From: Gigantopelta aegis
Lineage: Eukaryota; Mollusca; Gastropoda; Neomphalida; Peltospiridae
DNA length: 64,000 nucleotides
Direction: 5' to 3'
NCBI RefSeq assembly: GCF_016097555.1
Contig: NC_054712.1
Coordinates: 56,313,810-56,377,809, forward strand
Both the position numbers and the translations under genes were made by a program. The notes beneath the pieces are model-generated. The model worked only from the letters and a program-made list of their open reading frames with translations, was not told where the DNA came from and ran no database searches. Each line of letters opens with the position of its first letter. Position 1 is the stretch's first letter. This document shows, piece after piece, positions 2,372 to 59,175 of the stretch.

Positions 2372-2453
2372 ATGGATTCCGTGAAGATTTCGCTGCTGCT
2401 GCTGTGCGTGTCTGTGTGGATTGGAAACGGAAACTGTCTGCTTCAATACTGCA
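2372..2453 (+). CDS. Gene A exon 1: start and signal peptide
   Basis: ATG at 2372 opens a hydrophobic leader (MDSVKISLLLLCVSVW...) ending ...QYC. Donor GT at 2454. The exon is 82 nt and ends in phase 1, exactly as in genes B and C, which is why this ATG is chosen. Confidence 0.85.
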
Positions 2454-56500: not shown

Positions 56501-59175
56501 ATTCTTGAAATTTGTACGTGTTTTACTCCAAACGCATATGCTATTCAATCACTGACGTAGCCAGGATTTTATATTGGGGAGCCTCCCATATTGGGATTAG
56601 TGAGGGGGGGGGGCACACTGTCTTTTATAGTGGTGTTATGAGGGGAGCGTGCACCCTCCCCCCGCCCGGCCCCCAGTCTACGCCAATTTATTCAATTGTG
56701 AATTGAAAATGCAGAGCATATGCTTCTTTTACTGGGCAAATAAAAATAAAGAGAGAGAGAAAAGATTTTGAGTGGCCCTTCTTTTGGAGTCTTTGTAATG
56801 TTTATTGCCAGGGACTTATAGTATTGTGTACAGCAAAACAGGCGTTTTTTGAAAGGTCATGACTGCTACCACGATGCACTGTCCTGTGTCATGTTCGTTT
56901 TGTTGGTTTTATTTTCAGAATCTAATTCAACATCTTCGCCTGAAAAACTGCACGAGGCAGAAATTTCGTTGATGTCTTCCAACTGCTGCAGCGGACTGAT
57001 ACCAATACTGGATCAGCTGGACATAACCATCCCCGCTCCAGAAAATATGGGATTCATATGCTCCAATCCAAAAACTGCCACGACGTCAACTTGTGAGGTA
57101 ATACACACTTGTCATTGCTCTATTTATTGCATGTATTTCATTTAATACGTAAATCCCGCATAGCAAACTATTTTCTGGATCTATCGCTATATATATTTAT
57201 TATCCGCTCTCGCTCGGGTAATACAATAATCCTGACACTCGTTTCGTAAAATCAGTACGACACACAAGCTTGTACAACAATAATAATAATAATAATAATA
57301 ATAATAATATATATGTTATAGTCAATGTGTAAAATCAGGCAATCTGTAGAATGCCTGAAAATTTCAGACAATCTCTAAAGTAACTGATTCACTCAGGCAA
57401 TTTGTATATTGCCTAAATATTTCAGGCAATATACACATTGCCTGACTTTTCAAGGTAATTTCTAGACACATTGCCTGAAATGAAAGATCCACCATTCATT
57501 GGCAGCAATTGTTATAAAGGTAAACACAACTAGTGACAAAATGCAATATTATTTAATTCGCTACGGATTTGAGATAAAGACATTAAAACAAGTAACAATC
57601 TAAACCAAACACATAATTGATATTTAATCACAAGATGCACATCATTAAAACAATTTGAATATTTTTGCTACAGATTTGAGATAAATACATTAAAACATAC
57701 ATCACATACATCATTAAAACAATTTGAATATTTTTGCTACGGATTTGAGATAAATACATTAAAACATACATCACATACATCATTAAAACAATTTGAATAT
57801 TTTTGCTACAGATTTGAGATAAATACATTAAAACATACATCACATACGTCATTAAAACAATTTGAATATTTTTGCTACAGATTTGAGATAAATACATAAA
57901 ACATACATCACATACATCATTAAAACAATTTGAATATTTTTGCTACGGATTTGAGATAAATACATTAAAACAGACATGAATATTTTTTCTACAAATTTGA
58001 GATAAATACATTAAAACATAAATAGATGCAAATCATTAAAACAATTTGAATATTTTTGCTACGGATTTGACATAAATACATTAAAACATACATCACATAC
58101 ATCATTAAAACATTAAAAGACATGCGAACATTAAAATATTATTCTTTCAAAGTATAGAATTAATAGATTAAGACAGGTTAACATCAAAAGTTATCATGAA
58201 TGCATGTTCAACGGGCTTCTAATCCATTGAAAAAAACAATCTATTTTAAGGTAATTAACCGTTACGATTATTCTTTCAAAGTATAGAATTAACAGATTAA
58301 GACAGTGTGAGATTAAAAGCAATATTTTGAATCTTAATTACTTTGATGTCAAGCTTTTCGTCAGTGTTTTGTTTTTGGAGAATGTCTTTGTGGAGATTTT
58401 TATTTGAAATAAATTACATAATTTTAACTAATATTGCATTTTGTCACTAGGTGTGTTTACCTTTACAACAATTGATGTCAATGAATGGTGGATCTTTCAT
58501 TTCAGGCAATGTTTCTAGAAATTACCTTGAAAAGTCAGGCAATGTGTATATTGCCTGAAATATTTAGGCAATATACAGATTGGCTGAGTGAATCAGTTAC
58601 TTTACAGATTGCCTGAAATTTTCAGGAATTCTACAGTTTGCCTGGTTTTACACATTGACTGTAACATATATATCACGTGACTAGATGTGAAAAGATTACA
58701 ATTTAAAAACAATTTACAATGAAATTTAAAAAAATAAAATAAAGAAAAAACAAAAAGCAGAAACAAACAAAACACCGTCCTCCCCCACCACCACCACCAC
58801 CATATTCATTATTCCATTATATGTCAGTTCATTTTAAAGCATGATAATATGGGGAGTTGATGTCCTATAGGAGTGAAACGTGCCGCGGAGAAATGATCCG
58901 GGCAGAAAGATCCTAGGGAATACAATACTCTGTTATACTCGACTGGGAGGTCTTTCCTTTACAATGAGGAACATGTACCTTTAAATTATGTGATTAGTTC
59001 TGTCTCTTTACAGTTCGACCAGGGCGGGATGCTGATGTGTCAGGACCAGATGAACAACTGGCTGCTGGCTGGGATTGCGTACGGGACTCCCTGCGACCCC
59101 AAGAAACCGAGCACGTTTGTGGACATCACCAAGAACTTGGAGATCATCAACTCCAAGATTACACCAGTAAACTGA
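47451..59175 (+). CDS. Gene C: secreted serine protease homologue, complete
   Basis: Eight exons: 47451-47532, 50968-51039, 52013-52129, 52828-53044, 53565-53677, 54693-54833, 56919-57097 and 59014-59175. These give 360 residues without internal stop, in the same phases as B. Signal peptide [17 protein letters not shown], Cys module [11 protein letters not shown], short Thr/Pro linker (about 20 residues), activation site SRILGG, then a chymotrypsin-fold domain. His57 is Thr (TTKTC). Asp102 is kept (GDIVFI). The catalytic Ser motif reads FDQGGML, so Ser195 is Gln and Gly193 is Phe. A TATAAAT box lies 57 bp before the ATG; an ATTAAA is 33 bp after the stop. Secreted pseudoprotease; ligand unknown. 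Confidence 0.92.
47684..48068 (+). mobile_element. SINE-B, full length
   Basis: Head GGCCTCGGTGGCGTCGTGG to tail CGTCGTTAAATAAAACACG. Target duplication CTCTCTCCATAACA on both sides. Confidence 0.85.
48276..48734. mobile_element. MITE filled with a 24-bp tandem repeat
   Basis: Ends CCACGAAGCGATCTTA and AAGATAGCTTCGTGG are inverted. The interior has about 15 units of GTAAGAGCATAACTACAGTA ACAC. Confidence 0.7.
48735..48812 (-). mobile_element. SINE-B tail fragment
   Basis: AATGCTTTATTTAACGACGC to ACATATGGTTAAG, head missing. Confidence 0.7.
48813..50967. other. Intron 1 of gene C, nothing recognised
   Basis: Poly-C at 49507-49543; several short ORFs (49734, 50240, 50643) without family features. 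Confidence 0.45.
50968..51039 (+). CDS. Gene C exon 2: Cys-rich module
   Basis: Acceptor TTCCAG, donor GTGAGA. Encodes [19 protein letters not shown] then CCGT. Same 72-nt length as gene B exon 2. Confidence 0.9.
51040..52012. other. Intron 2 of gene C, nothing recognised
   Basis: No clear repeat apart from a faint SINE-A-like tail near 51160-51300. Confidence 0.45.
52013..52129 (+). CDS. Gene C exon 3: Cys turn and short linker
   Basis: Encodes [17 protein letters not shown], then [17 protein letters not shown]. Donor GTAAGT. Shortest linker of the three paralogues. Confidence 0.88.
52168..52234. repeat. (AT)n microsatellite
   Basis: Pure AT run just after exon 3 of gene C. Confidence 0.9.
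52370..52618. repeat. (ACC/ACT)n trinucleotide tract
   Basis: Two 60-bp ACC/ACT blocks repeated, then (CTA)n and (AAT)n. The Thr/Pro ORFs here are artefacts, in spite of their likeness to the gene linker. Confidence 0.85.
52828..53044 (+). CDS. Gene C exon 4: start of protease-like domain
   Basis: Encodes [19 protein letters not shown], a nine-residue longer loop ([16 protein letters not shown]) than in B, and [17 protein letters not shown] with Thr at the His57 position. Confidence 0.9.
53087..53473 (+). mobile_element. SINE-B, full length, in intron 4 of gene C
   Basis: Target duplication CTTTCGTTCTAC at 53075-53086 and 53474-53485. Confidence 0.85.
53565..53677 (+). CDS. Gene C exon 5
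   Basis: Acceptor TTTCAG, donor GTAAGA. Encodes [18 protein letters not shown] then [12 protein letters not shown], phase 2 to 1. Confidence 0.87.
53707..53967. mobile_element. MITE with AAGCCCCGGTCACACTGTC ends
   Basis: Right end GACAGTGTGACCGGGGCTT is the exact inverse. GGATCG / CGATCC motifs recur inside. Confidence 0.8.
54317..54606 (+). mobile_element. SINE-A
   Basis: GGGACGTAGCCAAGTGTTAA head to GTGTTGTTAAACAAA tail, with a small internal duplication (AATAGCCGATGATTAAT). Confidence 0.75.
54609..54701 (+). repeat. Three 31-bp units with splice acceptor (gene C exon 6)
   Basis: TTTTCATTATGTGTTATTTT AG plus GYGACATTG in three tandem copies; only the last continues into exon 6 in frame. 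Confidence 0.9.
54693..54833 (+). CDS. Gene C exon 6: Asp102 segment
   Basis: Encodes [34 protein letters not shown] and CRVASWG, with an NIT sequon. The acceptor is the last of three tandem copies of a 31-bp unit; the third gives the frame that matches A and B. Confidence 0.9.
55328..55597. mobile_element. MITE, same family as 53707, right end lost
   Basis: AGCCTCGGTCACACTGTCAA left end and about 80% of the interior match the 53.7-kb copy. Confidence 0.7.
56065..56290 (+). mobile_element. SINE-B-type copy, 5' truncated
   Basis: Body GGGCCCATTGGGCAATTTCT to tail GTGTCGTTAAATAAAAG, followed by (AT)n to 56360. Confidence 0.7.
56550..56687. mobile_element. MITE with CACTGACGTAGCCAGGAT end
   Basis: G-rich interior and a decayed right end CAGTCTACGCCA. 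Confidence 0.55.
56919..57097 (+). CDS. Gene C exon 7
   Basis: Encodes [18 protein letters not shown] and ends [16 protein letters not shown], phase 0. Carries a CC pair where A and B have a single Cys. Confidence 0.87.
57314..58666. mobile_element. Non-autonomous Ginger-like element with ~240-bp TIRs
   Basis: TGTTATAGTCAATGTG at left and CACATTGACTGTAACA at right; TATA on both sides as a likely 4-bp target duplication. The arms (57314-57560 and 58430-58666) pair almost throughout and carry repeated TCAGGCAAT / ATTGCCTGA motifs. The interior is a ~68-bp tandem repeat. No ORF of a transposase. Confidence 0.75.
57645..58125. repeat. ~68-bp tandem repeat inside the Ginger-like element
   Basis: Six or seven units of ATTAAAACAATTTGAATATT, TTTGCTACGGATTTGAGATA, AATACATT AAAACATACATC. 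Confidence 0.88.
59014..59175 (+). CDS. Gene C exon 8: Ser195 region and stop
   Basis: Encodes [26 protein letters not shown] and ...[21 protein letters not shown], stop TGA. Gln stands at the Ser195 position. Confidence 0.92.
   Translation, partial: FDQGGMLMCQDQMNNWLLAGIAYGTPCDPKKPSTFVDITKNLEIINSKITPVN

Follow-up and report, generated by a model that had tools for sequence, protein, structure and literature searches.

A same-chromosome tandem family of apparently maintained, secreted-looking S1 pseudoproteases with a ten-cysteine module in the gastropod Gigantopelta aegis

The 64,000-nucleotide stretch of Gigantopelta aegis DNA analyzed here (contig C14, NC_054712.1, positions 56313810-56377809; hereafter the window) carries three tandem genes on the plus strand, named A, B, and C, whose predicted products join a hydrophobic N-terminus, a cysteine-rich module, a Thr/Pro linker, and a chymotrypsin-like (S1) domain that has lost catalytic residues. 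Gene B (35274-45172) and gene C (47451-59175) each comprise eight exons with GT/AG borders and encode proteins of 355 and 360 amino acids, respectively; gene A, which starts at 2372, has seven exons with the same intron phases as B and C. Four further members of the family, D to G, are encoded elsewhere on C14. Exon profiles built from D-G only were compared with 3211 window frames of at least 12 amino acids as an independent test of the models, and the resulting expectation values (E) accompany the features of A, B, and C listed below in window coordinates.

2372..2453, plus: A exon 1; hydrophobic signal-type N-terminus and first module cysteine; ATG, GT donor, phase 1; matches an A/B/C profile that includes itself; not recovered by the D-G profile
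10761..10841, plus: A exon 2; cysteine module CRYCC..CC; sole site in the searched A stretch scoring above 15 against B exon 2 under the phase rule; not recovered by the D-G profile
17384..17764, plus: A exon 3; last module cysteine and 113-amino-acid Thr/Pro linker; not recovered by the D-G profile
21274..21472, plus: A exon 4; RILGG activation site, H57 replaced by K; E 2.7e-19
24425..24540, plus: A exon 5; not recovered by the D-G profile
28965..29108, plus: A exon 6; D102 replaced by N; E 2.7e-21
30737..30909, plus: A exon 7; E 2.2e-12
33405..33604, no strand: 200-N assembly gap, possible place of A exon 8
35274..35355, plus: B exon 1; weak, E 0.013
36161..36232, plus: B exon 2; cysteine module; E 1.1e-8
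37342..37494, plus: B exon 3; cysteine and 35-amino-acid Thr-rich linker; not recovered by the D-G profile
40399..40588, plus: B exon 4; RIMGG, H57 replaced by I; E 8.2e-26
41156..41262, plus: B exon 5; E 8.6e-9
41827..41970, plus: B exon 6; D102 kept; E 2.1e-27
43231..43385, plus: B exon 7; E 1.5e-18
45008..45172, plus: B exon 8; LDEGG, with G193 replaced by L, D194 kept, S195 replaced by E; E 3.4e-31
47394..47399, plus: TATAAA of gene C, 57 bases before the ATG, within a core promoter-like stretch common to C, D, E, and F
47451..47532, plus: C exon 1; E 2.3e-16
50968..51039, plus: C exon 2; cysteine module; E 5.2e-7
52013..52129, plus: C exon 3; cysteine and 25-amino-acid Thr/Pro linker; E 2.8e-4
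52828..53044, plus: C exon 4; RILGG, H57 replaced by T; E 4.4e-22
53565..53677, plus: C exon 5; E 9.3e-5
54693..54833, plus: C exon 6; D102 kept; E 7.7e-22
56919..57097, plus: C exon 7; E 4.6e-15
59014..59175, plus: C exon 8; FDQGG, with G193 replaced by F, D194 kept, S195 replaced by Q; E 2.9e-25

The intron phases of the array genes are 1,1,1,2,1,1,0, a pattern fitted by all 52 exons read (exons 2 and 5 of A, B, and C having been sought under this rule); the 52 comprise A without exon 8, F without exon 5, and G without exons 2 and 3, the F and G exons lying in sequence outside the stretches read. The D-G profiles recover all eight exons of C, with exon 3 weak, seven of the eight exons of B, with exon 3 missed and exon 1 weak, and three of the seven exons of A (4, 6, and 7). 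Since exons 1, 2, 3, and 5 of A were missed, the case for them is made by splice sites, phase, and their resemblance to B and C. Exon 8 of A was found neither by a motif search of the interval between A and B nor by an exon-8 profile run over the window frames; the assembly gap listed above lies between A exon 7 and gene B, and the exon may have been lost in it. An earlier note on this DNA had described three copies of one eight-exon structure, each with a signal peptide and an inactive chymotrypsin-like protease domain. The protein sizes it gave for B and C agree exactly, exon by exon, and the eight-exon structure stands for these two genes but not for A, whose seven exons have matching phases and whose eighth was not found. 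The signal peptide is upheld to the extent of a hydrophobic N-terminus judged by eye only, the protease fold and its inactivity are borne out by Pfam matches and by the loss of catalytic residues (see below), and the count of three proves too low. The four other copies, the related S1 cluster on C14, and the kept zymogen switch described below had escaped that note.

Tandem repeats occur within two of these genes. In gene A, a large share of intron 1 is an array of a 30-base unit (3266-10091, about 228 copies), and a large share of intron 2 an array of a 44-base unit (12488-16305, about 82 copies). An 82-base array of 7.7 copies (36190-36809) begins within B exon 2, copying the 3' half of the exon and its GT donor, so that the true donor is one of eight consecutive donor-like sites.

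Whole-genome searches, which covered 1.149 Gb, extend the family well beyond the window. The S1 domain of B gave at least 28 matches at E <=0.01, of which 24 fall in seven genes and four at C14:13.20-13.34 Mb; that of E gave at least 30, with 25 in the same seven genes, four in the 13-Mb cluster, and one on contig C8 (all counts being lower bounds). Thus, the same-chromosome tandem family has at least seven members, A-G, the last four of which are located as follows.

C14:56394154-56414414, same strand as A-C: gene D, downstream of the window; complete, 328 amino acids
C14:56433053-56451540, same strand as A-C: gene E, downstream of the window; complete, 345 amino acids
C14:56467654-56482567, same strand as A-C: gene F, downstream of the window; exons 1-4 and 6-8 read
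C14:51496254-51515683, minus: gene G, about 5 Mb from the array; exons 1 and 4-8 read

In the 99 kb upstream of the window (56213810-56312909), no exon profile gave a match at E <=0.04, and no relative of protein D was found among viral and prokaryote contigs. Amino-acid identity in the S1 domain ranges from 41 to 59% across the 21 pairs of A-G; the copies are diverged into a repertoire. Elsewhere in the assembly, matches to the haemocyanin beta-sandwich (PF14830), a mark of mollusc haemocyanin, occur on contigs C2783 (four, two of which may be halves of a single domain) and C5121 (one), with none in 14 prokaryote control genomes; they point indirectly to a molluscan source, although both contigs come late in the numbering and may be contaminants rather than chromosomes. 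Abalone-type egg lysin gave no match, a negative that does not amount to absence.

The module encoded by exons 1-3 of A-F follows the pattern C-x(1,2)-C-x(8,9)-C-x2-CC-x(4,5)-CC-x(8,9)-C-x4-C-x(1 or 3)-C, in which ten cysteine columns, including two CC pairs, are invariant among the six modules read. The exon-1 donor of gene E is shifted upstream by one codon, and the codon split with exon 2 restores the cysteine. None of the six modules matched Pfam at E <=10 (most matches above 0.1 being discarded by the HMMER filters), and none was matched in PDB by single sequence or by profile; the description of this cysteine pattern as unfamiliar, made in the earlier note, is in keeping with both results. 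When the C module was compared with the whole genome, which is the sole basis for outlying module copies, 11 matches were obtained at E <=10, ten of them in genes of the A-G family and one on contig C6 (E 8.65). An exon 1 also lies upstream of the S1 exons of gene G. The linker that follows the last module cysteine measures 113, 35, 25, 6, 28, and 31 amino acids in A-F, respectively, with a combined Thr, Ser, and Pro fraction of 0.61-0.77.

The recurrence of this layout bears on whether the gene models are correct, as the cysteine-module exons could belong to another gene and remain unspliced to the S1 exons. The long introns of A are packed with tandem repeats, four of its exons are missed by the D-G profiles, and the exon joins of A-G are predicted from DNA alone, all of which would fit such an error; however, the same order and strand recur with compatible phases in the six loci where exons 1-3 were read (A-F), exon 1 is likewise found upstream of G, and the shifted exon-1 donor of E is balanced by its exon 2 so that the cysteine is kept. 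We regard wrong models as very improbable.

In a Pfam scan of A, B, and C, the S1 domain matches Trypsin (PF00089) with E 3.2e-17 over residues 1-220 of 220 in B, 5.5e-16 over 3-218 in C, and 1.3e-10 over 1-154 in A; the S1 part of five members had no match in NCBIfam. Position 57 is occupied by K, I, T, K, P, G, and P in A-G, so His57 is lost in all seven genes, whereas Asp102 is kept in five of them (N, D, D, D, D, D, and N). Among the six copies with exon 8 (B-G), the oxyanion Gly193 is replaced in every case (L, F, M, M, F, and I), as is Ser195 (E, Q, Q, E, E, and G), and Asp194 is kept in all. The zymogen cleavage site Arg15-Ile16 is intact in sequence, with R15, I16, G18, and G19 present in 7/7 genes. 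Judging by these residues, canonical catalysis is impossible in A-G. A domain that still cuts by a non-standard mechanism, through Asp194/Glu195 or a shifted nucleophile, would draw on the retention of D102 (5/7) and D194 (6/6); against it stand three different residues at position 195 (E, Q, and G), five at position 57, and a bulky hydrophobic residue at position 193 in 6/6 copies, a pattern that leaves no base, nucleophile, or oxyanion hole, and this explanation is hardly conceivable. The proteins thus lack what defines an active S1 peptidase and show the features of a serine protease homologue (SPH), or S1 pseudoprotease: the S1 fold, lost catalytic residues, and a maintained gene.

Evidence for such maintenance comes from conserved columns and substitution rates. 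Among S1 alignment columns with at least six residues, 62 of 234 are invariant, and twelve of these are cysteine columns. Judging by their positions, ten of the twelve cysteines presumably form the five chymotrypsin disulfides, including Cys1-Cys122, and the remaining two may form an extra pair. Ratios of nonsynonymous to synonymous substitution rates in the S1 part (dN/dS, NG86) are 0.37 for the pair D and E, 0.35 for D and F, 0.31 for E and F, 0.23 for B and E, 0.22 for B and D, 0.28 for B and C, and 0.26 for C and D, with bootstrap upper limits of 0.34-0.54; these are the seven pairs of lowest dS among the 21 (dS 0.88-1.69), the other 14 having dS >=1.87 or being saturated. Duplicated proteases decaying without function would explain the lost catalytic residues and the missing exon 8 of A, but not the four complete open frames of B-E, 328-360 amino acids long and with splice sites, the dN/dS values well below 1 in the tested pairs, or the S1 cysteines kept in all copies read. 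On the complete frames, the low dN/dS, and the kept cysteines, we rejected the pseudogene reading as unlikely, indeed very improbable. Because Arg15-Ile16 and Asp194 are kept, dN/dS is low, and the S1 cysteines are invariant, A-G are better described as maintained pseudoproteases than as relics: a real, apparently maintained tandem family of secreted-looking proteins that is a variant of the known SPH kind.

Related S1 exons on C14 outside the family offer a view of its possible origin. Nine His-type and seven Ser-type exons were read. Those at 13.0-13.4 Mb comprise every listed row of either type (six His-type and four Ser-type) together with two His and two Ser exons from further searches; those at 20.8 Mb are one His-type and one Ser-type exon, out of three rows of each type listed for the 20-Mb stretch. 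Four of the nine His exons (L054, L056, L058, and L064) retain His57, which is lost in the other five (A in L050, S in L051, Q in L055, D in L057, and T in L068), while Ser195 is kept in six of the seven Ser exons (L049, L059-L062, and L065) and replaced by Q in L066; the two Asp exons read have D (L052) and E (L067). Within the 13.0-13.4 Mb cluster, His57 is kept in 3/8 His exons and lost in 5/8, and GDSGG is kept in 5/6 Ser exons. The activity of any gene of this cluster would be an extrapolation from exons only. An extra cysteine before PWM/PWV, a mark of A-G, is present in eight of the nine His exons (the exception being L064), including all eight at 13.0-13.4 Mb. Three exons on the minus strand at C14:13.193-13.198 Mb, L050, L067, and L066, carry A57, E102, and Q195 together with a GDQGGMLMC motif like that of gene C, and look like one separate dead S1 gene, a candidate for which splicing of the three together is presumed. 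No match to the cysteine module was found in the cluster, where 1.5 kb upstream of one gene were read.

In a tree of His exons (15 rows and 60 columns, without L068), A-G occupy one branch (87/86) and adjoin two dead exons of the 13-Mb cluster, L050 and L051 (91/81); since no branch of this tree is starred and several rows are long, it serves as a lead only. The mixture of kept and lost catalytic residues in a cluster on the same chromosome suggests a local origin of the family. Thus, the loss of catalysis probably predates the array or falls at its base, with local active relatives as the proposed source, and the stepwise loss might be traceable where both states coexist on one chromosome.

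Upstream of exon 1, genes C, D, E, and F share a core promoter-like TATAAATACCGAG stretch, which lies around TATAAATACCGAGTCTG and places TATAAA 57 bases before the ATG in C and 63 bases before it in D, E, and F. Gene G has TATAAA at -73 in a different sequence context (about 116 upstream bases read), and no TATAAA occurs within 350 bases upstream of A and B. The promoter-like stretch common to C-F suggests that these four genes are co-expressed. Upstream similarity is high between E and F (86.5% identity over 468 bases through exon 1) and between D and F (90.2% over 225 bases). Exons 1-2 of D, E, and F have dS values of 0-0.30 (23-27 codons each) versus 0.88-1.18 in the S1 part, a difference that could reflect gene conversion or chimeric duplication.

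These sequence features also bear on the main rival to a signalling or cofactor role, namely that A-G are secreted to serve as structural proteins or decoys in mucus, an egg coat, or the product of a gland, and that their dead S1 domain and cysteine module make up a stable disulfide-bonded scaffold without requiring cleavage for activation. The mucin-like linkers rich in Thr, Ser, and Pro agree with such a role, and so does the combination of fast S1 divergence with the close similarity of D, E, and F in exon 1 and the sequence upstream of it, which fits a secretion repertoire. However, the retention of R15-I16 and D194 would have no reason if cleavage were irrelevant, though the chance of coincidence is only modestly low, and gene D is nearly devoid of a linker. 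We consider this explanation possible but somewhat unlikely.

The reading that we favour instead, in which A-G are proteolytically switched binding proteins, is suggested by comparison with two known systems. Arthropod clip-domain SPHs (CLIPA, cSPH) consist of a signal peptide, an N-terminal cysteine-rich module, a linker, and a dead S1 domain preceded by a cleavage site, and A-F present the same order of parts. The clip domain has six cysteines, whereas the module of A-F has ten, with two CC pairs, and yields no CLIP match in Pfam. The different cysteine number and the lack of a CLIP match led us to reject clip-SPH membership and to place A-G in a family apart, as the earlier note had also held. 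As described in PMC7215089, insect cSPHs serve as cofactors and are cleaved by a terminal protease.

By profile, the closest solved sequences to the S1 domain are enteropeptidase (1ekb, 1.7e-21) and plasma kallikrein (2e-17); unlike these active enzymes, A-G are devoid of His57, Ser195, and Gly193. A second comparison is with the plasminogen-related growth factors HGF and macrophage-stimulating protein (MSP), in which Kringle and PAN domains precede the pseudoprotease domain; A, B, and C have no Kringle or PAN-type match, Trypsin being the only Pfam family above the cut-off. The likeness concerns the switch: A-G keep R15-I16 in 7/7 and D194 in 6/6 copies, cleavage being predicted from sequence alone. 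According to PMC13194640, HGF and MSP are S1 pseudoproteases that become active once cleaved to two chains, and pairing of Ile16 with Asp194 after cleavage orders the activation domain.

The fusion of an S1 domain without cutting residues to a small cysteine module makes A-G candidate signalling or cofactor proteins. We propose, with a probability of roughly one half, that they are secreted, proteolytically switched binding proteins, either cofactors or ligands, that act like clip-SPHs or HGF and belong to neither group. In the proposed scheme, an upstream trypsin-like protease would cut after Arg15, and the new Ile16 N-terminus would pair with Asp194 and reorder the S1 domain into a binding-competent form. 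The cysteine module would stay tethered through a disulfide of the Cys1-Cys122 type, giving a two-chain form, and the switched, non-cutting domain would bind a partner (a receptor, a protease, or a protease substrate) as cofactor or ligand, while the module and the mucin-like stalk might anchor or oligomerise the protein. Every step of this cut-and-bind scheme is drawn by analogy with HGF/MSP and insect cSPHs.

Several observations weigh against this proposal. The linker of gene D is cut to 6 amino acids, versus 25-113 in the other five read, with module and S1 domain kept, and D102 is lost in A and G. The retention of the switch residues is no more than suggestive: with 62 of 234 columns invariant anyway, chance alone would make any three chosen sites invariant in about 2% of cases (a hand estimate). 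Chymotrypsin numbering and disulfide pairs were assigned from motifs and from the chymotrypsin pattern; exon borders in D-G were placed by hand at GT/AG sites; and the search for exons 2 and 5 of A-C under the phase rule means that their phase agreement is not independent evidence. Finally, the dN/dS values are rough, given dS of 0.88-1.69 in the pairs used and higher or saturated dS elsewhere.

More specifically, we tentatively put forward A-G as a novel type of secreted signalling molecule or cofactor that is switched by a protease but does not itself cut, an independent counterpart of clip-SPHs and HGF. It would combine a putative, previously undescribed ten-cysteine domain, a mucin-like stalk, and an S1 domain without catalysis but with a zymogen switch, tandem-expanded to a diverse repertoire in one animal lineage. 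Among the matches listed in open-access literature, no molluscan family of this architecture was found, which is weak evidence as most subscription journals fall outside that literature. Dead-protease cofactors have been described in arthropods and dead-protease ligands in vertebrates (PMC7215089 and PMC13194640, respectively). If the family were mollusc-wide, it would offer a concrete, clonable way into the question of whether pseudoprotease cofactors switched by proteases operate in molluscs.

The window contains several features outside these genes. A split open frame (32863-33213) whose tail is C-rich has no Pfam match at E <=0.1, and presumably resembles a mobile-element or domesticated integrase-type protein. 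On the minus strand at 61268-62158, a 296-amino-acid open frame with HTH_Tnp_Tc3_2 (1.2e-13) and DDE_3 (2.7e-7) matches encodes a Tc1/mariner-like transposase. Three tRNA-like sequences are located at 3189-3260 (minus), 47687-47758 (plus), and 63501-63573 (plus); one of them scores just above the Rfam tRNA cut-off, two lie within a dispersed repeat, and they are possibly tRNA-derived short interspersed nuclear elements.

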